Virus record (IMG/VR): IMGVR_UViG_3300021495_000014
Coordinates: 1-29,727 of that record
DNA: 29,727 nucleotides
Origin: a virus
Strand: one strand, 5' to 3'
A program made the translations under genes and the position numbers. The notes beneath the pieces are model-generated. The model was not told where the DNA came from. It did not search any database and was given only the letters and a program-made list of their open reading frames with translations. This document shows positions 107 to 29,727 of the stretch, in pieces (position 1 is the stretch's first letter; every line of letters begins with the position of its first letter).

Positions 107-1184
107 AATCAAGTAAGGTAAATTATGATTAAATCTTACAAACTAAAAATTTATGCAAATAAAAATAAAATCAAGGAACTAAATAAACTTATTGCTTTTT
201 GGCAAGACCAAGTAAATCACAAAATAAAGCTGTTTTGGACATTTAAAGACATAAAAGGTTCATATCCTCCTAAAGAATATTGCAGGGGTGGAAGACTTGT
301 TAGGGATGCTTCTCAAAAAGCTTGGCAAATAGTTAAAGGTGCAAAAAAAACCAAACAAAAGGAAAGGCCATATTTCAAAGGCAAGGAAATAGATTTAAAT
401 CAGTTTAGTGCCTATATTATTCCTGAATTTAAAACAAAGGAGTTCAATATTTGGTTTAAAGTAATTTCTACTACACCAAGAAAAAGGATAATTCTGCCTT
501 GTAAACGGACTAAAATCTTTAACGAAGCAGTTAATAAAGGAAAATTAAGAAGGAGCTTTAAATTATTGAAAATCAATGGCAATTATTATATGCAATGCTT
601 TGTGGAGTTTCCCGAAATTAAACAAGAGAATAAAAATATTATCGGCATTGATGTAGGTTTAAATAAACCGATTGTAACTTCTGATGGTAAAGTTTTAGGT
701 AAAGAATTGAAAGGCTTAAAAATAAGAACGAAATGGAGGACTTATAAGCATTGTTTATCACCTACTAAACAATGGCTTAATCACTATGCTAAAGAGCTAA
801 TAAAGCTTTATCCTGATACTGATTTTGCTGTTGAGGATTTATTGTTTAAAGGCAAGAAAAATAGAACTAAAAAATTTAGGAGAGATAATAATAATTGGCC
901 ATATAAATGGTTGGCAAAGAAATTGATGGAGCTTTCAAGCCTCAAAGGTTTTGGGGTAATAAAGGTTAATCCATGTAATACTTCCATTACTTGCCCGTTA
1001 TGTGGATTAACTGATAAAGCGAATCGGCAAGGAGAATTGTTTCATTGTATTGGCTGTGGGCATAAGGAAGATGCTGATATAATTGGAGCAATTAATATCA
1101 AACTTCTTGCCGAGAGAGTAGCTAGGAAGCAATCCGTCTCCTCAACCAGACAGGAAGGATAAATGTCCATTAAGTCTGGAACGG
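107..1184 (+). mobile_element. TnpB-only IS200/IS605-type element, copy 1
   Basis: Ends were set by comparing this copy with the inverted copy at 8775-9854. On the left, similarity begins at TTTATAATCAA (102-112). On the right it ends at GGAACGG (1178-1184), after which the flanks differ completely. The right end carries a hairpin, CCAGAC (1146-1151) pairing with GTCTGG (1174-1179), conserved in the other copy. The left end carries a perfect TATAAT (104-109) that could act as a -10 box for tnpB. No tnpA transposase is encoded, so movement would need one supplied in trans. The shared TTTAT at 102-106 may be the target/TAM motif and not part of the element. Confidence 0.75.
125..1162 (+). CDS. 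tnpB: RNA-guided TnpB nuclease (IS200/IS605 OrfB), intact
   Basis: A 345-residue TnpB, the RuvC-like RNA-guided nuclease encoded by IS200/IS605 and IS607 elements. The catalytic residues are visible: D176 in GIDVG (RuvC-I), E237 in AVEDL (RuvC-II) and D318 in the EDADIIGAINI segment (RuvC-III). A four-cysteine zinc finger (C290, C293, C308, C311) sits between RuvC-II and RuvC-III, as in the family. It is slightly shorter than typical TnpB proteins of about 400 residues. The stop TAA (1160-1162) directly abuts the ATG of the next gene. The Shine-Dalgarno site is weak (GGTAA). The family cuts DNA next to a TAM using an omega RNA from the element's right end and promotes retention of the element at its donor site. 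The second copy at 8797-9836 is about 95% identical over the aligned C-terminal 199 residues but is frameshifted. Confidence 0.93.
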   Translation: MIKSYKLKIYANKNKIKELNKLIAFWQDQVNHKIKLFWTFKDIKGSYPPKEYCRGGRLVRDASQKAWQIVKGAKKTKQKERPYFKGKEIDLNQFSAYIIPEFKTKEFNIWFKVISTTPRKRIILPCKRTKIFNEAVNKGKLRRSFKLLKINGNYYMQCFVEFPEIKQENKNIIGIDVGLNKPIVTSDGKVLGKELKGLKIRTKWRTYKHCLSPTKQWLNHYAKELIKLYPDTDFAVEDLLFKGKKNRTKKFRRDNNNWPYKWLAKKLMELSSLKGFGVIKVNPCNTSITCPLCGLTDKANRQGELFHCIGCGHKEDADIIGAINIKLLAERVARKQSVSSTRQEG

Positions 1185-7061: not shown

Positions 7062-7224
7062 TAAAGTAAAAATTCTATCAAGCTATCATACTAGGGAACT
7101 TGAAATATGTGGAGAAGAGGCTATTGTAGTGCATGTATGCAATGACGAGCCTAAGCAAGTTAGAGTGGAAGTGCCAAATCGGGGTAAGTATTATTTGTTG
7201 TTGAGTGAGGTGGAGAAGATATGA
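7033..7224 (+). CDS. Small KOW/SH3-like beta-barrel protein, 63 residues
   Basis: The pattern FKVGDKVKILSSYHTRELEI, then GEEAIVVHVC and QVRVEV, is that of a small SH3-like or KOW-type barrel. The start ATG 7033 is chosen because AAAGGAGAAAAGCA precedes it; the frame is open further upstream to ATG 6985, but that start has no ribosome-binding site and lies well inside the preceding gene. It ends as ATGA into the amidase gene. Its partner is unknown. Confidence 0.55.
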   Translation: MTQTNFKVGDKVKILSSYHTRELEICGEEAIVVHVCNDEPKQVRVEVPNRGKYYLLLSEVEKI

Positions 7225-7766
7225 AAAAACACACCATCGTAATTGACCCAGGGCATGGAGGTAAAGACCCAGGAGCTGTTTATGCAGGATACAAAGAGAA
7301 AGATATAGTTTTGCCTATTGCATTATATCTGGGTGGGTTCTTATCTCATACCTCTTCTGAAGCTAATCTAAAAATAAATTGTGTCTATACCAGAACGGCT
7401 GATATATATGTGCCATTACGAGATAGGGCTTTCATTGCAAATAGCATAAAAGCAGATGCCTTTGTTAGCATTCATGTCAATGCCTCTCCTAAACATAATG
7501 CTAGAGGAGAAGAAATCTGGATTTACCCTGGTTCAATCAAAAGTGCCAAATTAGCAAATAGTATTGCTACATACATTGATGAGATAGTCCCTGGCAGGTT
7601 CAGAGGAGTTAAGGAAGGGAATTTTTATGTGTTAAGAAAAACCAAAATGCCTGCTGTTTTAATTGAAGTGGGTTTTTTAGATAATCCTTATACGCCATTG
7701 CATTCTTCACATACTCAAATCAGGGCAGCATTTTTGATTGCTAGTGGGATTAAGAATATTTGTTGA
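7221..7766 (+). CDS. N-acetylmuramoyl-L-alanine amidase (Amidase_3), phage endolysin
   Basis: A complete Amidase_3 catalytic domain of 181 residues that cleaves the amide bond between N-acetylmuramic acid and L-alanine in peptidoglycan. Zinc ligands are seen as H12 in IDPGHGG, E26 in YKEKD and H85 in SIHVNAS. The catalytic glutamate is E149 in LIEVGFLDNP. There is no signal peptide and no extra cell-wall-binding domain, as in many single-domain endolysins. Release would need a holin or similar protein, and none is evident in the window. It lies near the end of the plus-strand operon, facing a second cell-wall enzyme on the other strand. Confidence 0.92.
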   Translation: MKKHTIVIDPGHGGKDPGAVYAGYKEKDIVLPIALYLGGFLSHTSSEANLKINCVYTRTADIYVPLRDRAFIANSIKADAFVSIHVNASPKHNARGEEIWIYPGSIKSAKLANSIATYIDEIVPGRFRGVKEGNFYVLRKTKMPAVLIEVGFLDNPYTPLHSSHTQIRAAFLIASGIKNIC

Positions 7767-8754: not shown

Positions 8755-8860
8755 AAAGCCCCCCACAAATTTAACCGTTCCAGACTTAATGGACATTTAT
8801 CCCCCCCCTGTCTGGTTTAAGGAGACGGATTGCTTCCTAGCTACTCTCTCGGCAAGAAGT
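8755..8860 (-). ncRNA. Candidate omega RNA 3' part of the second TnpB element
   Basis: The same right-end hairpin as in copy 1 is present on the minus strand: on the plus strand CCAGAC is at 8780-8785 and GTCTGG at 8810-8815. The loop differs (a run of G instead of GGAAGG) but the stem is unchanged. The element ends at 8775 and the predicted guide (minus strand) begins TTAAATTTGTGGGG. Transcription of this RNA is inferred only. Confidence 0.35.
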
Positions 8861-9854
8861 TTGATATTGATTGCCCCAATTATATCAGCATCTTCCTTAT
8901 GCCCACAGCCAATACAATGGAACAATTCTCCTTGCCGATTCGCTTTATCAGTTAATCCACATAACGGGCAAGTAAGGGAAGTATTACATGGATTAACCTT
9001 TATCACCCCAAAACCTTTGAGGCTTGAAAGCTCTATCAATTTCTTTGCCAACCACTTATATGGCCAATTATTATTATCTCTCCTAAATTTTTTAGTTCTA
9101 TTTTTCTTACCTTTAAACAATAAATCCTCAACAGCAAAATCAGTATCAGGATAAAGTTTTATTAGCTCTTTAGCATAATGATTAAGCCATTGTTTAGTAG
9201 GTGATAAACAACGCTTATAAGTTCTCCATTTCGTTCTTATTCTTAAATCTTTCAATTCTTTACCTAGGATTTTACCATCAGAAGTTACAATCGGTTTATT
9301 TAAACCTACATCAATGCCGATAATATTCATATTTTCTCGTTTAATTTCAGAAAACTCCACAAAGCATTGCATATAATAATTGCCATTGATTTTCAATAAT
9401 TTAAAGCCCCTTCTTAATTTTCCTTTATTAACTGCTTCGTTAAAGATTTTAGTCCGTTTACAAGGCAGAATTATCCTTTTTCTTGGTGTAGTAGAAATTA
9501 CTTTAAACCAAATATCAAACTCTTTTGTTTTAAATTCAGGAATATATAGGCACTAAACTGATTTAAATCTATTTCCTTGCCTTTGAAATATGGTCTTTCT
9601 TTTTGATTAGTTTTTCTTGCACCTTTAACTATTTGCCAAGCTTTTTGAGAAGCATCCCTAACAAGTCTTCCACCCCTGCAATATTCTTTAGGAGGATATA
9701 AACCTTTTATGTCTTTAAATGTCCAAAACAGCTTTATTTTATGATTTACTTGGTCTTGCCAGAAAGAGAGAAGCTTATTTAATTCTTTGGTCTTTCCTTT
9801 ATTCGCATAAATTTTCAATTTGTAAGATTTAATCATAATTTACCTTATTTGATT
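8775..9854 (-). mobile_element. TnpB-only IS200/IS605-type element, copy 2 (inverted)
   Basis: An inverted near-copy of 107-1184, bounded on the minus strand by TTTAT (9859-9855) on the left and GGAACGG ending at 8775 on the right. It lies between the lipoprotein gene and the NlpC/P60-like gene. It contains no tnpA. Its left end overlaps the last codons and the stop of the lipoprotein gene. Confidence 0.75.
8797..9836 (-). pseudogene. tnpB: Frameshifted tnpB, copy 2
   Basis: The same protein as the intact copy, but a single T is missing near 9543 (CCTATATATTCC instead of CCTATATTATTCC). This shifts the frame after QFSAYI and stops translation at 112 residues. Past that point the original frame is open to the stop at 8797, keeping RuvC D, E and D and the four cysteines. 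One deletion therefore appears to be the only disabling change. Substitutions relative to copy 1 are scattered. A sequencing or assembly error at this spot is an alternative. Confidence 0.85.
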
Positions 9855-10229: not shown

Positions 10230-10415
10230 TTAATTTTTAAAATATTCAATCAAGTTAAGTAACCTCTCAAATTTTTTACTCAATTCAAGCAATTGTTCTA
10301 TAAGTCTTTTGCATTCCTCTGGGTCTTCTGTTTCAGGGCATCTAGTCCTAGCTTCCATTGCCCACTGCTTAATCAAAGTAATAAGTCTTCTGGCTTCTAT
10401 TTCTTGTTTATTCAT
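10230..10415 (-). CDS. Small helical hypothetical protein, 61 residues
   Basis: Begins MNKQEIEARRLITLIKQWAM. It is highly charged with probable coiled-coil character, includes a short acidic CPETEDPEEC segment, and has no membrane span. It starts as ATGA overlapping the stop of the phosphoesterase gene, so it is probably translated by coupling. Function unknown. Confidence 0.55.
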   Translation of the reverse strand: MNKQEIEARRLITLIKQWAMEARTRCPETEDPEECKRLIEQLLELSKKFERLLNLIEYFKN

Positions 10416-11068
10416 AATGTCTTAATTTCCACCTGACCTCTTTCAATTTCTACCCAGCTTCTGCTATCTAACCAATCACCACAATCAGCTAATTTTTGCC
10501 CTGTCTCCAATGTATGGACAGAAGGATAATGGGTATGTCCGATAACCAATATTCTGCACCAACGAGCTTTTTCTAAGAATGAAAATGCTTCAGCATATAT
10601 TTGCCCTATTTTCTCTTTCCATTTTTCTCTATCTCTTAGCTTCCATTCACTGGGTGAATTGAAAAACCAAGGTGCAAACTTTGATAACAACCTCCAATTC
10701 CAATGTTTACAAAGAGGGTCAAATTGATAACCATGCACAAAACCTATTCTGCCCATACGGTAAAAAGGGTATACGATGACTTCCATGCCCAATAATTCAG
10801 GGAGTTTCTTATCTAGCTCTTCATCATGATTACCTGTTATAAAAATTGCTTCAGTCTCCTTCACAATTTTCTTGACTGCCTTTATCAACTCTTGTCCCAT
10901 GTAGCAATTTTTAATTTCCTTTACGGAGCATCTAATTAAATCAAAAATATCTCCACAAAATATAACTTTGTCTGCTCCACAGGCATAATCAGCAAAAGGA
11001 ATGAAATATTGCGATGTATAAGGAATGTGAAGGTCGCTAATGCAAATTATCTTCTTATTTGTTATCAT
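10412..11068 (-). CDS. Calcineurin-type metallophosphoesterase
   Basis: A 218-residue protein with the full set of metallophosphoesterase motifs: D12-x-H14 (ISDLHIP), G39-D40 (CGDIFD), G79-N80-H81-D82, H112 in FVHGY and G177-H178-T179-H180. Two metal ions would be bound and a phosphomonoester or diester cleaved. The arrangement resembles LpxH/UDP-2,3-diacylglucosamine hydrolase-like and YfcE-like enzymes; the substrate is not known. Its position in a late operon beside protease, lipoprotein and wall hydrolase genes is unusual and hints at an envelope or nucleic-acid processing role. Confidence 0.85.
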   Translation of the reverse strand: MITNKKIICISDLHIPYTSQYFIPFADYACGADKVIFCGDIFDLIRCSVKEIKNCYMGQELIKAVKKIVKETEAIFITGNHDEELDKKLPELLGMEVIVYPFYRMGRIGFVHGYQFDPLCKHWNWRLLSKFAPWFFNSPSEWKLRDREKWKEKIGQIYAEAFSFLEKARWCRILVIGHTHYPSVHTLETGQKLADCGDWLDSRSWVEIERGQVEIKTL

Positions 11069-11071
11069 TTT

Positions 11072-11389
11072 CTACTGAATGGTTATTTTTTCGTCCACCA
11101 TTTCAGCACTCATACTTGCCTCTTTCTCTGCTTCAGTCATAGGGATATTTTTTAAGAGAAATGCTATATCTTCCACTGTTAGATATAAAGCAAACCAACC
11201 GCCAAAGGTAATAAAAGCTACATCCTTGACTTTTGCTTCTACTGATTTGAGCATATTGTAAAATACCAACTTTTCATTTTTACCCTTGATATAAAATGTA
11301 AAATGGCCTTTCCCGCATGTCAGAGCGTAGTTATCACCTTCAGCTTGCCTTATCCTCCAATTCTCATTTTCTGCAATTACTTTGCTCAT
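11072..11389 (-). CDS. Hypothetical protein, 105 residues
   Basis: The N-terminal half is beta-rich (NWRIRQAEGDNYALTCGKGH, then TFYIKGK). A helical region and an acidic methionine-containing tail follow. No domain is recognised. It starts as ATGA overlapping the protease stop, and its own stop lies three bases before the phosphoesterase start. Confidence 0.55.
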   Translation of the reverse strand: MSKVIAENENWRIRQAEGDNYALTCGKGHFTFYIKGKNEKLVFYNMLKSVEAKVKDVAFITFGGWFALYLTVEDIAFLLKNIPMTEAEKEASMSAEMVDEKITIQ

Positions 11390-12384
11390 TTATCTTTTTC
11401 TCCTTTATCTACCAATCTCCAACCGCTACCACTATAGCCTCCTCTAATTACATTCTCGTTCTTTACCAAGATTACATCATCAAATAAAGCATTAAATTGA
11501 CCATAATTAACTTGAATGGTAGCAGAAGGGTCAGTTACAATCGTTTTGTAACTGCACCAAAACGAAGACCCGATTACTTTATCCTTTTCTTTCACTTTCT
11601 TTATTGGAACAGCAAAACTATATCCTTCTTTCACCATATACTCTGCTTTACATATCACTCCTACTTGCTCACTTCCAGCAAATAACAAACCAATAAATGG
11701 TAAATCCTCATCAAACGAACTATCAGCAATTTTGGCTATATGTTTAACTGAGGGCTCGTAAACAGCAAAATCAATATGATTTACATTATCTCTAGATAAA
11801 CTAAGTCTACTTGAACTCCCAACTAATTTAGCTAGAAAGTTAAGTGCTTTTGTAACAAAATTACCAATTGGGCATCCCATATCCATTGGAATGATTTGTT
11901 TATGCCAATGATATTCCCCCACCACATTATCTGGGTTTTGTTTTCCATGATATGGGCCCGGCTGTAAAATCCGTTTTTCCTTAATCTGTTCAGGACTTAA
12001 ACTTGCATCAGGCGTTAATACATGACTATTAGAAGCTACTAAGACTTTATCTTCCTTATAGACAGGGAATATCCCCAGACTGCCAGCGGAAATGAGCCAG
12101 TTCCCTATACTAAGCCCTATAGTTACAGGACGAGTTCTGGCTGTCTTATCTACTTTTAATGCCTTTACTTCACCAATCTCAACAACATCTAATCTTGTCT
12201 TATTGTGATATCTTGGAAATAAATCCTTCTTGCTGATATAATCTATAGGCAATTTCTTTTTCACATATACTCTAATGCCCCTTTGTTCTGTCTCTTTACC
12301 TCTCTCTATCACTGGTAAAAGTGTATTAGAGTGGCCAATATATCCTCTTTTTTCCTTAAGCTGTTTATGTAATGTTTTAATCAT
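11386..12384 (-). CDS. Trypsin-like (chymotrypsin-fold) serine protease with rearranged C-terminal part
   Basis: The start at 12384 (MIKTLHKQLKEKRG) is preferred because GAGAGGAAAAGG precedes it; the upstream ATG 12408 is an alternative. Numbered from that upstream Met, the catalytic triad is H129 in SNSHVL, D213 in HIDFAVY and S326 in GGYSGSG. The N-terminal part (GIRVYVKKKLP, then VVEIGEVKAL) and the ILQPGPYHG segment match a family of bacterial trypsin-like proteases that read their own N-terminal domain. In that family GDSGS is normally followed by VGLLFAGS; here GLLFAGS (240-246) comes about 80 residues before the catalytic Ser, which lies only 14 residues from the C-terminus. The probable role is cleavage of a virion or host protein during late infection. 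The target is unknown. Confidence 0.75.
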   Translation of the reverse strand: MIKTLHKQLKEKRGYIGHSNTLLPVIERGKETEQRGIRVYVKKKLPIDYISKKDLFPRYHNKTRLDVVEIGEVKALKVDKTARTRPVTIGLSIGNWLISAGSLGIFPVYKEDKVLVASNSHVLTPDASLSPEQIKEKRILQPGPYHGKQNPDNVVGEYHWHKQIIPMDMGCPIGNFVTKALNFLAKLVGSSSRLSLSRDNVNHIDFAVYEPSVKHIAKIADSSFDEDLPFIGLLFAGSEQVGVICKAEYMVKEGYSFAVPIKKVKEKDKVIGSSFWCSYKTIVTDPSATIQVNYGQFNALFDDVILVKNENVIRGGYSGSGWRLVDKGEKDK

Positions 12385-14579: not shown

Positions 14580-16079
14580 TTAATCTCCTTTTCTTAAAAA
14601 GCTTATCTTAGACATCAATTTTTTAAAACTCATAGATGAATAGTATTTTTTAAAACTTACTGATGCACGGTGAGCTTGAAAGCTTATTTTACCAACTGCT
14701 AATTTAACCAAGGTTGTAATTTTGACTAAACTTTCTGTAATTGATACAGTCTCACTCATAACCTTTATCAATGTAGTAATACAAGAACGAGCAACTGTTT
14801 CAGCAATACCGATAGTTTCATTTAGAATTCTATTTGCTCTGCATCTTCTAACAATTGTTTCTGCAATTGACATTGTTTCAGCCATTATCTTTGATATTTT
14901 ACATTTTCTATTCAAAATTTCAAGAATACTCAATGTTTCCTGCATTATTCTATTACTGGTGCATTTTCTTACCAAACTCTCTGTTATAGAAACAGTCTCA
15001 TCCATTATCTTTACAATGCCTGCTATGCAAGAACGAACAAAAGTCTCGGTAACACTCACAGTTTCATTGATTATTTTGGTCACAAATCCTCTACGATTTA
15101 ATACTTCACTTATAGAAATACTTTCTACCATAGCTCTAACTGAACGAAGACGCCTTAAAATTCCTTCAGAGATTGATAGTGTTTCATCCATTATTCTTTT
15201 TGAATATAACCGCCTTACTAAAGTTTCTGTTACAGATATAGTTTCACTCATTATCTTGACTACCGTGCTAACACATGAACGGATAAAGCTTTCAGTTATA
15301 CTAACTGTCTCATTAATTATTCTTACAGCTCTCAACCGTTTGAACACCGCCTCGGTTATATTTAATGTTTCATTGATTATCTTAGTCAAAGATGCTCTAC
15401 GAATTAATATTTCACTTATAGAGATATTTTCTGCTATAGCTCTGATTGAAAAGGCTCTACGAGACATTGCTTCGATTATTGACAGTGTTTCATCCATCAC
15501 TTTTACTATTGCACCTATATATGAACGGACAAAGTTCTCAGTAATGCTTACAGTTTCGTTAATTATTCTTGCTGACCGTAATCTTCTTACTAAGTTTTCA
15601 GATATGGATATAGTCTCGCCAATTATCCTTGTGGCTCTTAATTGCCTAAGTACTGCTTCAGTTATATTTAATGTCTCATTGATAACTCTGGTTGAGAATG
15701 ATCTACGAGATAGTGCCTCGGCAATTGATACTGTCTCGTTTATAACTCTGCTTGACCTTAATCTTCTTAATATTCCTTCAGATATAGCAACTGTTTCATC
15801 TATTAAACGATTTGAATACCCTCTCCTTGGCATAGTTTCAGCAACTGCAACTGTTTCTCCAATAAAACGGTTTGCATAAAGTCGTCTTACTAAGGCTTCA
15901 GAGAGTGATAGTGTTTCATCCATTATCTTAGTTATTGCTTCTCCAGCTGCTGTTGCATAGTAAGTCTGCAACTGCCCAAAATACAAGCTGTATCCATTTG
16001 TAGCGATAAAGCCACTTGATGGTGCTTCATCCTCTATCTCAACTTCACCAAAGCTATGTATAAAATCTACATATGCCAT
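14580..16079 (-). CDS. Tail-associated protein made of twenty 20-21-residue repeats
   Basis: A 499-residue protein in three parts. Residues 1-48 form an N-terminal cap (including ATNGYSLYFGQLQTYY). Residues 49-457 are exactly twenty tandem repeats with consensus near RIINETVSITEALVRRLRA, 20 or 21 residues each. Residues 458-499 form a basic tail with its own short SFKK repeats (SVSFKK, MSFKKL, KISF). Nearly every repeat keeps the E-(T/S)-(V/L/I)-(S/A) core and a downstream glutamate, so the surface carries regular rows of acidic and basic residues. The fold cannot be read directly; a solenoid or a long fibrous trimer is plausible. Position directly after two spike genes suggests a fibre or stalk, but surface-adhesin use is also possible. 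Confidence 0.7.
   Translation of the reverse strand: MAYVDFIHSFGEVEIEDEAPSSGFIATNGYSLYFGQLQTYYATAAGEAITKIMDETLSLSEALVRRLYANRFIGETVAVAETMPRRGYSNRLIDETVAISEGILRRLRSSRVINETVSIAEALSRRSFSTRVINETLNITEAVLRQLRATRIIGETISISENLVRRLRSARIINETVSITENFVRSYIGAIVKVMDETLSIIEAMSRRAFSIRAIAENISISEILIRRASLTKIINETLNITEAVFKRLRAVRIINETVSITESFIRSCVSTVVKIMSETISVTETLVRRLYSKRIMDETLSISEGILRRLRSVRAMVESISISEVLNRRGFVTKIINETVSVTETFVRSCIAGIVKIMDETVSITESLVRKCTSNRIMQETLSILEILNRKCKISKIMAETMSIAETIVRRCRANRILNETIGIAETVARSCITTLIKVMSETVSITESLVKITTLVKLAVGKISFQAHRASVSFKKYYSSMSFKKLMSKISFLRKGD
14708..15935 (-). repeat. Twenty tandem 60-63-bp repeats inside the 499-residue protein gene
   Basis: Twenty degenerate units in frame, without gaps. 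Spacing is 60 bases for 11 units and 63 for nine. The 63-base units come in pairs (7/8, 11/12, 15/16, 19/20) plus unit 1. This marks blocks of seven, four, four, four and one units, suggesting nested duplication. The antisense strand stays open over most of the array because of the periodicity. Confidence 0.9.
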
Positions 16080-18924: not shown

Positions 18925-21462
18925 CTACAAACTTTCAATAAAATTCAAGGATATAACGTTTCTTCTAATTTTATTTATCAACTCAGGTACATCTTCAAAC
19001 CTCCCATAAAGACGAGTGAGAACTCCCTTTACTTTAGTTTCATCTGGAAACATATCTATAACAATATCCTTACGTATCCCAAATCTCCTGACTATATCAA
19101 CAAAATATGTCCATGCCTCGTCTTTTTCAATCCATTCAAATGTAAAAGAAACTTTATATTGTTTTTCTAAAATGTATGTAATTGGCTGTCCACCTCTGGT
19201 GTATTTAACTCGTGTTCTATCTTGGGGAATAAATTTCCAATCCCAAACAAAATTGTAAGAAGGCTCAAAATAATGAGTAAGAAACAAACGACCTAGCTCA
19301 AAATATCCATCTGGATTATCATTATCTTCAAAGTATAATCTCCAATAACGAGCTTCTGTTGTTGGGAAATAATAAATTCTGATCACACCTGGAAATAACT
19401 TATTTACCTCTGCGGGTGTAGGAAAACCACCAAATCCATGTTCGCCAAATCCTCCTTCTCCAAAACCCCACACTGATTGCCATGCCCAAAACCGTATATA
19501 TAACTTTGGGTTGCTTTCATAATCGGAGCTATCCGTTGCAACCAGTTTAATCCGTCCATCATAAGTCAAATTATGGTTGATTAGAACTACACAGTTAGCA
19601 TATATACTACTACCAAAATCTATAGATATGTATTGGTTTGTAAGTGAAGATGAACGCCATGTCTTTTTTCGCCGCTGCTCTTGTAAATTGGAAACAGGAA
19701 ACCCACTTGCTTCTGAGGATGCAGTTATAATGGCAGAATCAAAATCCGTATTATCATATATAAATCTGATGTTTGCACTAGTAGTTCTCCTAAATTCAAA
19801 AGCACCAATATCAACACCAGTCCCCCATGGGACAGAATTACCTTCATAGTCCTCTGTCAATCCGACATTCACCCCTGCATCTATGCAAGGGGAGGAGGAT
19901 TGGAGACGGAAGTCATAATCATCTGCATCTATAAAGAGTGGGTTTTGGCATAAAGAATGAGAATCTTGAGAATGGTCATAAGAATAATAACTAGATTGGT
20001 TTCCAAGAACATGAGCAAAATCATACTCACTATAATAACTAATACAATTTTTATCACCTGAATCTTCATAAAAGAGATTATAGTCTGATTCAAAATTAAG
20101 AGTTCCATCACGAGGATAATAATACAAGTCAAAGCCTTCAGAATTTTGGAAAAGCCCTATTACATTATTCTTAAGAAATAAAGACAGTGTAGAATCTGAT
20201 TGCGTAGAAATATTAACATTTGCTTTTGAACCTGCACCTGTGCCACTATTCTTCCAAAATATATTGTTATATACCTTAACACTTGAAGTTGTCCCCCCAC
20301 GAGTATGTATTATTAGCCCACCCCATTGAACAGAACTTTCCTTATTTCCTATCCCATTATTGAAGATGATATTATAATAAACCTCATGGTCTCCATCTAC
20401 ATATTCAAGTGAGACTCCTCTGCCATCACAGTTATAGATTTTATTGTATCTAATTATAATATCAGTTATATTCCCACTATCAGCCCCCTCTGAGCATACA
20501 ACAATCCCTTTTGCCCTTGTGCTTTTGTCTGAATAATCACATCCAATATCATGGATTATATTATGTTCAATTGTGATATTAGAAGGCTCTTGAGAACCCT
20601 CAGACCCATGACTGGATATAACAATTCCTTCTTTATCTTCACCATTTTGGCCGTTTCTAATACTGGCCTTTTTCCCAATATGATGGATATAGTTAGAAGC
20701 TACTGTAATATCTGAACAATCAGCACCAATGTTAATTGCACGGTCTTCAATATATGTAAGTTCATTACTGTTAATAACACAATCAGTGCAACCATTAAGG
20801 CTTATCCCTAAATATGCACCATATAAAACTTCACAATTGAAAATCTCACAAGAACTGGAGTCTTCAAGAACTACTACACTCCTTAAATACAAAGAGTCTG
20901 GGTCATGGGGCGGTTCAAAGCCGTTTCCTGCTTCAAATCTTATATTTTCAATTTTTATGTAAGATTTTCCATTGATGTAAAGTGCCCGTTTTCTAGTTCC
21001 TAATTCTACAATGTGGTCATTAGGAGTGCCTGAAGATGGTTTATAATAAATATAGCTTGAGTCATCTCCTCCCCATTGTCCTGAACTCAAATCTGAGCCA
21101 TCCGTTGGACTTATTTTTTGCAATTTTTGACCATCTTCTAATAAAATTCTGTAATGCCGTGAATCCCCACTGATTTGCCAAACACCATTTTCATCTGGTC
21201 CTGTCCAACCTGTCTCAATATCTGCCCCTGTTATCTTAGGTTTATCACCGTTTCCATAAGCACCAAAAGTAATAAGATTCCCATTTGAACCAGATGAAGG
21301 CACAGTTAAAGTTTCTCGCCACACTTCTCCTCTTTTAAAATAAATATTATCTCCAGCACTAAAACTAGTAGAGTTTACCTTGGATATAGTTTTCCAAGGC
21401 TGGGTTTGTGTCCCAGGGTTGCTGTCATCACCCAAAGTTGCATCTACATAATAACTAGCCAT
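18925..21462 (-). CDS. Large beta-helix tail spike with discoidin-like C-terminal region
   Basis: An 845-residue protein. Residues 1 to about 560 form a right-handed beta-helix: the opening YYVDATLGDDSNPGTQTQPW, then WKTISKV...DNIYFKRGEV, is typical, and short coils with N and G turns follow (NNVIGLF, DITVASNYIHHIG). From about residue 565 a different part begins. ITASSEASGFPVSNLQEQRR, then KTWRS, YISIDFGS and CVVLINHN match the F5/8 type C-like domain used in many phage tail proteins to bind carbohydrate or to dock. A glycine-rich linker (GFGEGGFGEHGFGG) and a C-terminal tail domain complete it. The beta-helix probably recognises or cuts polysaccharide; the C-terminal part probably docks to the tail tip. 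Confidence 0.75.
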   Translation of the reverse strand: MASYYVDATLGDDSNPGTQTQPWKTISKVNSTSFSAGDNIYFKRGEVWRETLTVPSSGSNGNLITFGAYGNGDKPKITGADIETGWTGPDENGVWQISGDSRHYRILLEDGQKLQKISPTDGSDLSSGQWGGDDSSYIYYKPSSGTPNDHIVELGTRKRALYINGKSYIKIENIRFEAGNGFEPPHDPDSLYLRSVVVLEDSSSCEIFNCEVLYGAYLGISLNGCTDCVINSNELTYIEDRAINIGADCSDITVASNYIHHIGKKASIRNGQNGEDKEGIVISSHGSEGSQEPSNITIEHNIIHDIGCDYSDKSTRAKGIVVCSEGADSGNITDIIIRYNKIYNCDGRGVSLEYVDGDHEVYYNIIFNNGIGNKESSVQWGGLIIHTRGGTTSSVKVYNNIFWKNSGTGAGSKANVNISTQSDSTLSLFLKNNVIGLFQNSEGFDLYYYPRDGTLNFESDYNLFYEDSGDKNCISYYSEYDFAHVLGNQSSYYSYDHSQDSHSLCQNPLFIDADDYDFRLQSSSPCIDAGVNVGLTEDYEGNSVPWGTGVDIGAFEFRRTTSANIRFIYDNTDFDSAIITASSEASGFPVSNLQEQRRKKTWRSSSLTNQYISIDFGSSIYANCVVLINHNLTYDGRIKLVATDSSDYESNPKLYIRFWAWQSVWGFGEGGFGEHGFGGFPTPAEVNKLFPGVIRIYYFPTTEARYWRLYFEDNDNPDGYFELGRLFLTHYFEPSYNFVWDWKFIPQDRTRVKYTRGGQPITYILEKQYKVSFTFEWIEKDEAWTYFVDIVRRFGIRKDIVIDMFPDETKVKGVLTRLYGRFEDVPELINKIRRNVISLNFIESL

Positions 21463-24617: not shown

Positions 24618-26078
24618 TTATCCCCAAAGAGTGACCACTGTCTCGCTCTCCTCGTAATTTTCTTCTATGCTTATTAATCGGTAATAACCATCCAAATTAT
24701 ATCTGGTTCTCTCATATTTTATATTGTCATTAAGCTCTGAGTTGAATACTTGCAAGTTTATTTTATCCGTGATAATCATCCGCTTTTGACCGAAAATGGA
24801 CAAATATCTATCAGCTAAAGTTTCTGCATCAGCTTTGTTTTTCAAAAATGTATCAATTGTCCTCTCCTTTGAGGAACCGTATAACGAATGTGTGCTGGAG
24901 CTTTCTTTAGAGGTATAGCGATACATATTCTTTAACCACTCTTTTCTGCTCAGACCAACACTGCCTCCCAAACCTGTTGTTTGTATAGTCCAGTTTCTGT
25001 CGTATCCAATATTAACTTTCCAGTAAATATGAGGATAAAACTCTCCTTTAAACTCTCCCTCATGCCCTTCCATGTCCGTAATTGTAACTGATGAACTGGA
25101 TGTAGGTTCTTTAAACTGCCAAACTCTAAACTTGCCATCTCTTGTAATCCCATAAGCACTCAACAAAGGAACTAAAATCATATCAATTACATCAAGCAGT
25201 TGCGTCTTGTTCATAACATATACTCCAATCGGCCAAGGTACATCGGTATTAAAATTGCTTAAATAAGTGCTGTCAATATCATCGTCTGAAAAGTTAGCAT
25301 AGGCCTTCAGCATATATTCTACTATCTCTCCAGGTTTAGTGAGAAAACTACCGTTACTAACAGCGCCCTCAACATCACATGTGACAGTGCCAACAGGTGC
25401 TGCGGACAGTCTAAAAGTGCCATTTGTTAAGTCCTTCGAGGCTATCGTTACCTCAACGCCATCGTCATAGGCATGAGTAACATCATTGATTTGCCCATCG
25501 TGAACCTTATAAGTGTAGTTTGTATCATCAATTAACACTGGAGTAATATTATAGCAATATCCAAAACATAAAGGGATTGGACGACCTATAACACTGGTTG
25601 GAGCATTGGGATAAGAAGTAGAGTCAAACTCATTCGGTGGAATCTCTATGTTTTCCAATTTGTATTGTGCATCATAAACAGGAATTCTGATTTCTTCGTC
25701 AGTAAATTCTGGGTCTTTCATATATCCTTTAAAAATTGTCCCATGTACCGACCAATCTGGCTTACCCGCTTCTATAACAACCTCTTGCCCATTGAGAGTC
25801 CAAGTTGTGTCTGAGTTTATATAATCATCAAAGAATCCATCTCCGTTGAACAAGACTAGATCGCCCCAAGAAATCTGAGACCTACCAAACATAATCTCTT
25901 GCATATTTTTTGACATTCTGGGGATACCAACCAAATAAGGTTCATAGTACTGATTGTCATAAACGCCTGCATGGGTAGAGACATAAAGCGTTTTAGTTTC
26001 GGAGCTACTTTTTACAGTCAGTCTAGCGCAATATACGATTTCAATGTTTAATGAAGTGATCCATTCTTCAAATGTCAT
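24618..26078 (-). CDS. Tail hub/baseplate-like protein
   Basis: A 486-residue protein directly downstream of the tape-measure gene, overlapping its stop. Motifs include LVLFNGDGFFDDY, IRIPVYDAQYKLENIEIPPN, SVIGRPIPLCFGYCYNITPV and ERTRYNLDGYYRLISIEENY. The IGRPIPLCFG...N(I/V)TPV segment is one I recognise from siphophage tail hub or minor tail proteins. The position after the tape measure is also right for the baseplate hub. GAGGTAATCTG precedes the start. Confidence 0.68.
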   Translation of the reverse strand: MTFEEWITSLNIEIVYCARLTVKSSSETKTLYVSTHAGVYDNQYYEPYLVGIPRMSKNMQEIMFGRSQISWGDLVLFNGDGFFDDYINSDTTWTLNGQEVVIEAGKPDWSVHGTIFKGYMKDPEFTDEEIRIPVYDAQYKLENIEIPPNEFDSTSYPNAPTSVIGRPIPLCFGYCYNITPVLIDDTNYTYKVHDGQINDVTHAYDDGVEVTIASKDLTNGTFRLSAAPVGTVTCDVEGAVSNGSFLTKPGEIVEYMLKAYANFSDDDIDSTYLSNFNTDVPWPIGVYVMNKTQLLDVIDMILVPLLSAYGITRDGKFRVWQFKEPTSSSSVTITDMEGHEGEFKGEFYPHIYWKVNIGYDRNWTIQTTGLGGSVGLSRKEWLKNMYRYTSKESSSTHSLYGSSKERTIDTFLKNKADAETLADRYLSIFGQKRMIITDKINLQVFNSELNDNIKYERTRYNLDGYYRLISIEENYEESETVVTLWG

Positions 26079-29000
26079 CAGATTACCTCTCTTGCCATCT
26101 TACTCTTCCAAATCCACCTTTTGATTTCCCTTCCATCTAATTTGATAGGAGCATCTATCTCAACTCTAATTGGTCTAGACTCAATCTTTTTTGCTAAAGT
26201 AGAAGCAAGTTTATCATAATCTATCTTCACATGGAATGAATAATTGCGAGCCAAAGGGATAACTGCTTCAGGGCCACTTTCACCCAGCATTGCAAAAGTT
26301 GGAGAAGTAACAATGCCCCCTTTTTGTAAATGATACATTCCCTTTGTTTCTGTTTCATGTATCAACCTTGCTTGTTCTTCAGGAATAATTACACCAGTAG
26401 CCTCAATTGCTTTTATTATTCTATCCCCTGCTTGTTCCACTGTTTGCCCTATTTCTTCCACATGTTCCGCAAACCCTCCAAACTGAGTTGTTACTATTGA
26501 GGGTGCAGAAAGTAAAGCAACAACCCGTTCTAACCAAGTATTTACTTGATTTAACTGATTTGTAAGGTTAGTATCCAATTGACTTAATATATTACGAATA
26601 TCTTGTTCTGTTGAATACAAACTAAGGAGTTGTGAAATTAGAGCATCTTGCTGAGACATAGCATATTGTCGCACTCCCGTTAAAAGATTGATAACATCTT
26701 GTTTAATTTCAAGAAATTTCTCACTGCTTTTATACATATCCTCAGCAGCAGAGAGATATTGGTTTGAGTAATCCAATAATGCTTGTGCAGTTTCTGCAGA
26801 AGGTTGCGCCCAAAATGCTTGAACCAAACTTTGCCACTGCTTTTGCACCTGACTCCAAGTTTGCTCAGGTGTTAATGCTATGAGTTGAATTTCATTAATC
26901 TTATCTTGCACAGCATCAGCCACATTCCCCCAAGTTTGAATTAAATCTTCTGTGTATTCTATTTGTTCACGGATATGCTCTATTTGTTGTTCATAGAGTT
27001 TCTTTTCTTGTTCACATTGCTCTTGCAGTAAGTTAATATATTTTTTGGTATCTGAAATTAAATTAGGCAAATTTTTCCCATAAAATTCAGCATAAGTTTT
27101 GGTTAAGTCTTGGACTTGTGGGAATACTTGCTGGATTGCTACCGTTAATGATTGTAACAATTCAGGCCTCATTTTCATGTAAGAACCCCACTTTGAAAGA
27201 AAACGCTCTATTGTAAGAGTGGGTGTAGCTATACCCATAGATTTGAGAGTGCTATTAATATCCCTAATTAAATCATTCAATGGCTCTAAAAAATCACTAA
27301 AAATTTTTCTCCTAGCTCTTTCATACATGTCTCTTAAGTCATCTAAACTAAATCCTAATGATTCAAATGCTTCTTTATGTGTTTCATAAAATTCCAAGGC
27401 TGCATCCCACCACTCATCAATATTTCCTACTTGGGCCTTAAATTCATCATATTCTGTCTTGAGAATTTCATTTAACGGCCCTAAGAACTGTGTTAACATA
27501 GCCTCGTTTAGCTTGTCTATTAAACCCAAATCCAGTATCTCTATAGCTGTAGATAAATCCTCATACCATGAGGACAGTTCCTCTAGGCTTAAGACTAATG
27601 GCTCAGTATATTGTTTAATTTCAGATAATATACTCTCTCTTAACCGTTTTCTTGCCTTTCCAAAAGCCTCATCAATCATATCAAGTGACAGACCATATTT
27701 CTCAAGTATATCTGCATTTTCTTCAAAGAATGTCTTAAAGGTTTCTGTAAAGCCTATCATAGCATTATACCAATCTATTAACTCTTGCACTTGGGATTCA
27801 AACTCACCTTTTGTATCTTCCAACATCTCTTGCATTGGCTTAAAAAACATTAAAATATATGCTTCATTCAATTTTTCTATGGATGCACCAACCTCAGTCA
27901 CTCGTGGATACATTTCTCTATAGCCCCAAACCAATTTCCAAAGCCCCCATAACGGTTCACTCATAGTATATTGCTGTATTAATTGCTCCAATTCTTGTTC
28001 TATTCTTGCTCTAGCTCTTTCAGCATCTCCTCGTGACTGTTTAATTGCTTCCATTGCTTCTTTCATTGATTCTTCAATATTTATCCGTTGAACTTGATAA
28101 GCCTGTGTAATTATATCTATAGAATATCCTAACGATTCAAAGATTTCTTTATGTGCATTGAAAAATTCTACGGCAGCATCATACCATGCATCCAAATCAG
28201 CTAACGCCTTTTCATAGTCATTCCGAGTATCAAGAATATCCTCCAATGGTTTGAAAAATTGCACTGCCAATGCTTCATTCAATCTTTCAGTAGATAAATT
28301 TAGTATTTCAGCTCTTGCAAACATTTCTTGATACCAGTTTTCTAGCTTCCTAATATCTCTCACACTAGATGGTAAAGTGTATTGAGCAATAACATCCTCT
28401 ATCTCGCCGATAATGGAAACTACTGTTGATAAGTATTCATTGACTGTTTGTCCAAACTCCTCTGCTTTCTTTTTCACTTCTTCTTCTTTTAATCCCTGCA
28501 CCTCACCTTTGTATCTTCCCAGCATATTCACGAGTTCATTAGCAATTTCATCCTTATACACACTAACCAATTCCTCTCCGTATTTATCCACTAGGTTCAT
28601 GATTGTTTTGGCATAAGTGAAAGCAACTCCTAGAGATGGTAATACTTCTCTGCTAAGCCTCTCATACAACTTTTTCATTTGTTCATTCCAGCGATGCCCA
28701 ATTCCACCAACTAGCTCTCCAATTTCAGGTAAGCCAAATTTTTCAAATAAATCCATGCCAAGTAATCTATTGTATTCTTCTAAAATTGGCACTGCCCAAG
28801 CATTGTATGTTTGTGATATCAGTTCATTTACGAACTGTTTGGCCAAATTCTCCATGTTCTTTTTCCCAGCACCAAAAGTCATTTCAATCTTAGGCAATTC
28901 TTCAAATCTCATTGTTGAAGGAAGAATACTTTGATAGAAATCAAGCAAATCATCTACAAAGCTACCAAATGTCTGTGTAATCTTATCCATACTTCCTTTT

Positions 29001-29727
29001 ACATCTCTCTTTTCCATTACTGTAATTCTAGCAAACTTAGTTTTATACATTGCATAAATTTCAGTATGCTCACCCAAATACTTTTCAATCTCCCTCATAT
29101 ACCCTTCAACATAATCTAGACTATCACTTAAACCTTTCAATGATACCTCTGCCGTTCCACGGATAGTTGGCCATTTACGGCTAAACATTGAGGTAAATAA
29201 AGTAATTAAGCCACCAACAGCAGCACCAAGCACTCCACCAGCTATCATACCTAAACCAAGCATTGAAGCTGCAGCTCCACCAGTCGCACCGCCTATGCCA
29301 GCTAATACTTGTTGACCCCAAAATCCCATTCCTCTTCTCAATCCAATCTGAGTTGATGGTATCCCTGCTGCACCAGCACCAACACCTACCCATTCAACTC
29401 TGCCTTTAAAAATTGCTCGTCCAATTTCTGCTGCTGTAATTGTTGCCATAGCAATTACAGGATGTCCCGTAAACAAGGCTGCTGTTGCACCAGCACCACC
29501 AATAGCTCGCCAAGGCTCACTTCCTGCTATCCCAGCGATACCATAGGCAACGGTGCCCAATGCTCCAAGTAATTTACCTGTTGAGCCTTTGAGCCAATTC
29601 ATGGCAGAAGACCAAATTTTCTTTATTGCCTCCAGCGGGTCTTTAAACGCTTGAGGAAGTCTTACTTTCAAATTTCCGATTAAGGTATTTTCCCATTCAA
29701 TTTTTTTCGTAATCATTCCAGCTAAAC
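26078..29727 (-). CDS. Tail tape-measure protein, 5' end open at the window edge
   Basis: The longest gene. Counted from Met 29716 it has 1212 residues, but the frame is open to the right edge (GGA, GCT, TTA before the ATG), so the true N-terminus is probably outside. Residues of about 45-185 are hydrophobic and glycine-rich membrane-active segments, as in tape-measure proteins. Three long helical repeats follow, with LNEA motifs at about 480, 617 and 738 and each with a W(Y/W)(D/N)A and an ESLG-type segment. A coiled coil with EQEKKLYEQQIEHIREQIEY lies near 895-920. The C-terminus has the tape-measure hallmark GGIVTSPTF...GESGPEAVIPL (about 1131-1153). The protein sets tail length and helps DNA entry. 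Confidence 0.9.
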   Translation of the reverse strand, partial: LAGMITKKIEWENTLIGNLKVRLPQAFKDPLEAIKKIWSSAMNWLKGSTGKLLGALGTVAYGIAGIAGSEPWRAIGGAGATAALFTGHPVIAMATITAAEIGRAIFKGRVEWVGVGAGAAGIPSTQIGLRRGMGFWGQQVLAGIGGATGGAAASMLGLGMIAGGVLGAAVGGLITLFTSMFSRKWPTIRGTAEVSLKGLSDSLDYVEGYMREIEKYLGEHTEIYAMYKTKFARITVMEKRDVKGSMDKITQTFGSFVDDLLDFYQSILPSTMRFEELPKIEMTFGAGKKNMENLAKQFVNELISQTYNAWAVPILEEYNRLLGMDLFEKFGLPEIGELVGGIGHRWNEQMKKLYERLSREVLPSLGVAFTYAKTIMNLVDKYGEELVSVYKDEIANELVNMLGRYKGEVQGLKEEEVKKKAEEFGQTVNEYLSTVVSIIGEIEDVIAQYTLPSSVRDIRKLENWYQEMFARAEILNLSTERLNEALAVQFFKPLEDILDTRNDYEKALADLDAWYDAAVEFFNAHKEIFESLGYSIDIITQAYQVQRINIEESMKEAMEAIKQSRGDAERARARIEQELEQLIQQYTMSEPLWGLWKLVWGYREMYPRVTEVGASIEKLNEAYILMFFKPMQEMLEDTKGEFESQVQELIDWYNAMIGFTETFKTFFEENADILEKYGLSLDMIDEAFGKARKRLRESILSEIKQYTEPLVLSLEELSSWYEDLSTAIEILDLGLIDKLNEAMLTQFLGPLNEILKTEYDEFKAQVGNIDEWWDAALEFYETHKEAFESLGFSLDDLRDMYERARRKIFSDFLEPLNDLIRDINSTLKSMGIATPTLTIERFLSKWGSYMKMRPELLQSLTVAIQQVFPQVQDLTKTYAEFYGKNLPNLISDTKKYINLLQEQCEQEKKLYEQQIEHIREQIEYTEDLIQTWGNVADAVQDKINEIQLIALTPEQTWSQVQKQWQSLVQAFWAQPSAETAQALLDYSNQYLSAAEDMYKSSEKFLEIKQDVINLLTGVRQYAMSQQDALISQLLSLYSTEQDIRNILSQLDTNLTNQLNQVNTWLERVVALLSAPSIVTTQFGGFAEHVEEIGQTVEQAGDRIIKAIEATGVIIPEEQARLIHETETKGMYHLQKGGIVTSPTFAMLGESGPEAVIPLARNYSFHVKIDYDKLASTLAKKIESRPIRVEIDAPIKLDGREIKRWIWKSKMAREVI
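27420..28350 (-). repeat. Three imperfect long repeats inside the tape-measure gene
   Basis: Each unit has QYT...L(E/S)xW(Y), then LNEA(xxx)FFxPL, then a short WY(D/N)A stretch and SLGxS(L/I)D. The units lie about 120-140 residues apart, at LNEA residues 480, 617 and 738. They differ in spacing but keep the order. This probably adjusts tail length. Confidence 0.65.

Follow-up and report, generated by a model that had tools for sequence, protein, structure and literature searches.

Few folds have been studied as thoroughly as the trypsin fold, and we are not aware of any case in nature where its strands are circularly permuted. Proteases of the PA clan carry a His-Asp-Ser triad in that order, and their last two strands and a helix follow the serine. 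Streptogrisin B and alpha-lytic protease (PDB 2sgp, 2alp) share the two-barrel trypsin fold with the protein described here, but have the ordinary order and are without a NAL1_N region. Closer relatives are found among prokaryotic proteases such as those of Desulforamulus aeronauticus (L026) and of archaea (L075, L081), which feature the same domains, triad and tail block with the tail behind the serine and with intact GRTTG and GDSGS motifs. The ordinary relatives scanned match Pfam NAL1_N, Nal1_C or Trypsin_2, and on account of the NAL1_N and Nal1_C matches, the family whose members ordinarily carry GLLFAGS behind the serine is designated NAL1-like (NARROW LEAF 1).

Among phage records, the sole match is ORF25-326 of the Aeropyrum coil-shaped virus (ACV; Spiraviridae; HE681887), present under two accessions. 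It exhibits 37% identity over 93% of the protein described here and shares its rotated order (IGLLFAGS, GRTTG, GDSGS and the end soon after), its triad, its N-terminal region and its early end past the serine; it differs in keeping GRTTG and GDSGS and in coming from a ssDNA virus of Aeropyrum. ORF25-326 has been listed as a putative trypsin-like serine protease, with no remark on its motif order found in the accessible sections of that source (PMC7416610). A member with the rotated order is already on deposit, as a 'putative serine protease', but no text noting the order was found, so that an earlier description of such members, named at the outset as a refutation, is only half present.

Gene position and motif order

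The window, meaning the whole stretch of 29,727 nucleotides analysed here, is a tailed-phage contig. The protease gene is encoded on the minus strand (11386..12384), as are all of its features given below, and runs from an ATG at 12384 to a stop at 11386, which shares an ATGA with the start codon of the following gene. The 332 aa product matches phrog_20754 'protease' (E 1.1e-34), as does the ACV protein, and this profile matches permuted and ordinary proteins alike. The window protein has no useful match in Pfam or NCBIfam, and none to the Pfam NAL1 entries. An N-terminal NAL1_N-like region is predicted at residues 1–75 (12160..12384) from the Pfam NAL1_N match of the ACV homolog (E 2.6e-5, under the curated cut-off) and from profile A3 of the permuted family, which matches NAL1 chains in the PDB (E 4e-4, profile positions 25–148). 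Rice NAL1 is the only significant PDB match of this sequence profile, and the profile was needed, as a PDB sequence search with the single window protein gave no match.

The triad of the PA clan is present in its usual order, with His121 in SNSHVL (12022..12024), Asp205 in NHIDFAV (11770..11772) and Ser318 (11431–11433) in GGYSGSG, which covers residues 315–321 (11422..11442). An alignment of 38 sequences shows no variation at these three residues, at the oxyanion Gly316 or at Gly319. The strand order of the clan is violated, since the two strands and helix that should follow the serine precede Ser318. GLLFAGS is located at residues 232–238, 83 residues ahead of GGYSGSG where the original prediction had put about 80, and 14 residues remain C-terminal to Ser318, as had been noted. 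The moved block (FIGLLFAGSEQVGVICKAEYMVKEGYSFA, residues 230–258; 11611..11697) was delimited with a tail-only HMM and the predicted secondary structure and consists of two strands and a helix. It is followed by the remaining strands of barrel 2 (residues 266–324; 11413..11589), and the protein stops just past the serine. Ordinary archaeal proteins terminate in '...GDSGSPVDKGGKFVGLAFAGSSSVAVVCKAKYIISGLGIRV', while the permuted ones have 'IGLLFAGSEKVGVICKAKYIQQEG' ahead of the serine.

Homology and predicted fold of the moved block

An HMM built from the post-serine tail alone of ordinary relatives matches residues 230–252 of the window protein (E 5.4e-8), the best of 1000 shuffled proteins reaching E 0.6, and in each of the 17 permuted proteins it finds a match that lies between Asp and Ser (E 2e-10 to 4e-4). 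The permuted-family profile in turn matches an ordinary protein in two out-of-order pieces, 264–324 then 227–253 (E 5.8e-6), and a second example gave profile positions 268–325 then 230–256 (E 4.6e-6). When the tail was moved in silico, the window protein aligned better with 24 ordinary relatives, its mean score rising from 157 to 190 (158 with a shuffled tail); for all permuted proteins, 94% of 408 pairwise scores improved and the mean rose from 195 to 229 (198 with a shuffled tail). A chance motif is ruled out by these shuffles, in both the HMM matches and the alignment scores. The circular-permutation-like move of the last strands that had been proposed is thus supported at the level of sequence and secondary structure, by the profile matches, by the element order relative to an ordinary control and by a tree with a single change.

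The ORF stops 14 residues past the serine, as it would if the gene were truncated or mis-assembled with GLLFAGS ahead of the serine by coincidence. This explanation is hardly credible, because the same order recurs in 17 proteins from separate records, the complete ACV genome among them, the tail HMM match is significant, no other copy of the tail exists in six frames and the dN/dS is 0.09. The tail block is present in the window DNA as a single copy (nt 11629–11697), and six-frame searches of 14 loci identified one copy per locus, before the serine, which rules out a frameshift or a missing 3' end with a second tail. The dN/dS of the window protease against L001–L003 is 0.086–0.095 and that of the moved block against the closest relatives is 0–0.02; purifying selection on the protease is strong.

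The structure prediction suggested at the outset was performed with AlphaFold2, for the window protein and for an ordinary family member. The window protein was modelled with a pLDDT of 90.1 and a pTM of 0.71; in the input alignment the ordinary proteins were cut after the serine, so that residues 236–258 were informed by permuted rows alone. After the Asp, the model features strands at 230–237 and 241–246, a helix at 247–252 and then strands at 269–273, 278–293, 298–308 and 321–324. The ordinary archaeal control L081 (pLDDT 90.3, pTM 0.85) features strands at 250–255, 259–275, 281–291 and 303–306, then 309–317 and 321–326 and a helix at 327–334. In these models, the order of the barrel 2 elements of the window protein is an exact rotation of that of L081.

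Foldseek ranks rice NAL1 (PDB 7y77, 8hau, 8pmm; Pfam NAL1_N, Nal1_C) first for both models. It is the best structural match to the window model (E 4.5e-11), but it is a plant protein, its sequence-profile match is confined to the first half, and its rmsd to the window model is approximately 18 A. The TMt to streptogrisin B (2sgp_E) is 0.61 for the window model and 0.76 for the control, a drop that is about what would be expected if the moved block of approximately 35 residues were lost from a sequential alignment; the TMt of the window model to alpha-lytic protease is 0.56. Expressed as residue equivalents, the streptogrisin B values correspond to approximately 113 (window) and 141 (control) of 185 residues, and since both exceed the share of one barrel, both barrels are probably docked in the models. 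The two-beta-barrel fold is thereby present on the predicted model, given the NAL1 and streptogrisin B matches. The rmsd to NAL1 implies that the window model, the pTM of which is below that of the control, differs from NAL1 in the placement of at least one part. This may be the N-terminal region, which is set off by a linker (pLDDT 69). Fold matches of the window model were also obtained in BFVD (A7WKJ8, A0A140F3K9, P19300; E 7e-6 to 4e-4); these are archaeal filamentous virus proteins and include the PFV1 structural protein VP3.

The protein is best explained, with a probability of roughly 80%, as an intact NAL1-like serine endopeptidase of the PA clan with a His-Asp-Ser triad, whose barrel 2 is predicted to be a circular permutation inside a single chain. 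In ordinary relatives, two strands and a helix complete barrel 2 behind the serine; here, these elements would sit immediately downstream of barrel 1 and lead into what is usually the opening strand of barrel 2, and the chain would terminate just past the serine strand. The moved strand would still occupy its usual place beside the serine strand, lining the substrate cleft, and the permuted enzyme would be active. A domain swap, in which the moved strands of one chain complete the barrel of a neighbor so that the oligomer rather than the single chain completes the fold, is quite improbable: several NAL1 entries contain 6 chains and the modelled arrangement departs from NAL1 (rmsd approximately 18 A, pTM 0.71), but in the single-chain model the block is predicted with high confidence (pLDDT 94–97) and the TM-scores to the small proteases are near the value for two docked barrels minus the block.

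Substitutions at the active site

Both GRTTG and GDSGS are absent from the window protein, which has SSFWC and GGYSGSG in their place. In the alignment, Phe275 (11560..11562) stands where the family GRTTG has Arg, and Tyr317 occupies the position of Asp194. The replacement of the GDSGS Asp by Tyr was correctly noticed in the original prediction, but it is separate from the permutation, because ACV, L014, L018, L019 and L066 are permuted yet keep GDSG; in the first four of these, GRTTG and GDSGS are both kept or nearly kept. Across the 38 aligned rows, position 317 is occupied by Y, W, C or D, and all sequences with GRT(T/S) have Asp before the serine. In the subclade of the window protein (n = 7), Phe or Leu replaces the GRTTG Arg and Trp or Tyr replaces the Asp, while the L012 group retains the Arg and has Cys for Asp and another Cys two residues past the Arg. 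Arg138 and Asp194 form an ion pair in streptogrisin-like proteases, and the joint loss of Arg and Asp makes sense in light of this pair.

The same two replacements in the window subclade could mark a pseudo-protease, which would keep the fold and triad with the oxyanion hole disabled and serve as a binding or scaffold protein. This alternative is rather unlikely, as neither the triad nor the oxyanion Gly varies and purifying selection is strong, and the HtrA (GNSGG), flavivirus NS3 (GTSGS) and sobemovirus (GWSG) proteases do not require the Asp. In a survey of proteases, Asp194 was conserved in just 71% (PMC3434108). The loss of both motif residues in the window subclade nevertheless counts against the preferred reading of an intact endopeptidase.

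Distribution, origin and genomic setting

The permuted order was identified in IMG/VR contigs L001–L003, L009, L010, L012, L014, L015, L045–L047 and L066, and in the archaeal genomes L018 (Bathyarchaeota), L019 (Brockarchaeota), and G388 and G239 (phylum of L018). Several permuted members come from hot environments. The viral proteins L016, L017 and L067 exhibit the ordinary His-Asp-Ser-tail order, and the ordinary arrangement (GRTTG, GDSGS, GLLFAGS and the end) is common in Bacillota, Chloroflexi, Bacteroidota, Pseudomonadota and archaea. A viral scan queried with L014 contributed L066, which has the permuted order, and L067, which has the ordinary one; scans with L018 and L066 as queries added no new members. 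Permuted proteins were recognized by one match to the permuted-family profile that reaches position ~330 with E 1e-120 or better; the exceptions are the Brockarchaeota protein and the intein gene of L015, with in-order pieces and best E of 1e-77 and 1e-70. In 398 sampled genomes of the Desulforamulus phylum (Bacillota), 156 match this profile and none of the 156 is permuted, the best match (E 1e-49) ending at profile position 216, which was taken as ordinary order. By the same profile criterion, 0 of 14 matching Chloroflexi genomes are permuted. In the phylum of L018, 4 of the 22 matching genomes are permuted. The L015 gene is also found in L056 (3902-7288, plus strand), where the C-terminal part of the permuted protease is 93% identical to L014 and two apparent intein-like inserts follow ITAG and LQPG in one 1128-aa frame.

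In a tree constructed without the moved block, the 17 permuted proteins form one side of one branch (support 98/92). This split is present in 98% of bootstrap trees, and a single order change is needed where shuffles need a mean of 13, so the order change appears, from these sequences, to have arisen once. The tree is unrooted, and the ordinary order is taken as ancestral from its wide occurrence and from trypsin-fold proteases in general. The distinct phage subfamily that had been offered as another reading is borne out as a distinct clade defined by the move, but the clade is not restricted to phages, since an ssDNA virus of archaea and several archaeal genomes also belong to it. Such permutations usually arise by duplication of the barrel and loss of the outer parts, and parts of barrel 2 may likewise have been duplicated and then partly lost to give the rearranged order; no duplication-loss intermediate was seen among the relatives.

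The window also encodes a tape measure protein (26078-29716), a beta-helix protein (18925-21462) and an N-acetylmuramoyl-L-alanine amidase (7221-7766), the last of which suggests a bacterial host. The protease gene follows the tail genes, with which it shares its strand, and closes the tail module, and no signal peptide was seen by eye; from this position and the missing signal peptide, cleavage of phage (structural) or host proteins by a late, cytosolic enzyme is tentatively put forward as the most likely role. A metallophosphoesterase gene (10412-11068, minus strand; Pfam match) is located near the protease, and genes that look like it lie near the permuted protease at L012 (2478-3308), L066 (1097-1927) and L069 (15-812). 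Two TnpB-like genes are present in the window, one at 125-1162 (plus strand) and one split into two ORFs (8797-9396 and 9498-9836, minus strand) that is a single 349-aa ORF in L001 (4118-5167). A protein encoded at 14580-16079 (minus strand), which is also present in L003, contains numerous degenerate repeats of the 'IMDETLSISEAL.RR' type, and opposite it the other strand has a long open frame.

The literature searched, in which subscription journals are largely outside coverage, yielded no account of a trypsin fold that is permuted in nature. We consider it somewhat probable that a single barrel of this fold underwent a natural circular permutation on one occasion, that the product spread among viruses of thermophilic archaea and bacteria and also entered archaeal genomes, that it yields working proteases with a chain end just past the catalytic serine, and that this has not been described before. 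For annotation, PHROG 20754 merges the two orders, and Pfam Nal1_C and Trypsin_2 matched 0 of the 3 permuted proteins scanned. As close relatives of the permuted clade have kept the ordinary order, the event can be tested directly, including whether a permuted barrel forms the same active site and how the rearrangement may affect specificity, stability and oligomerization.
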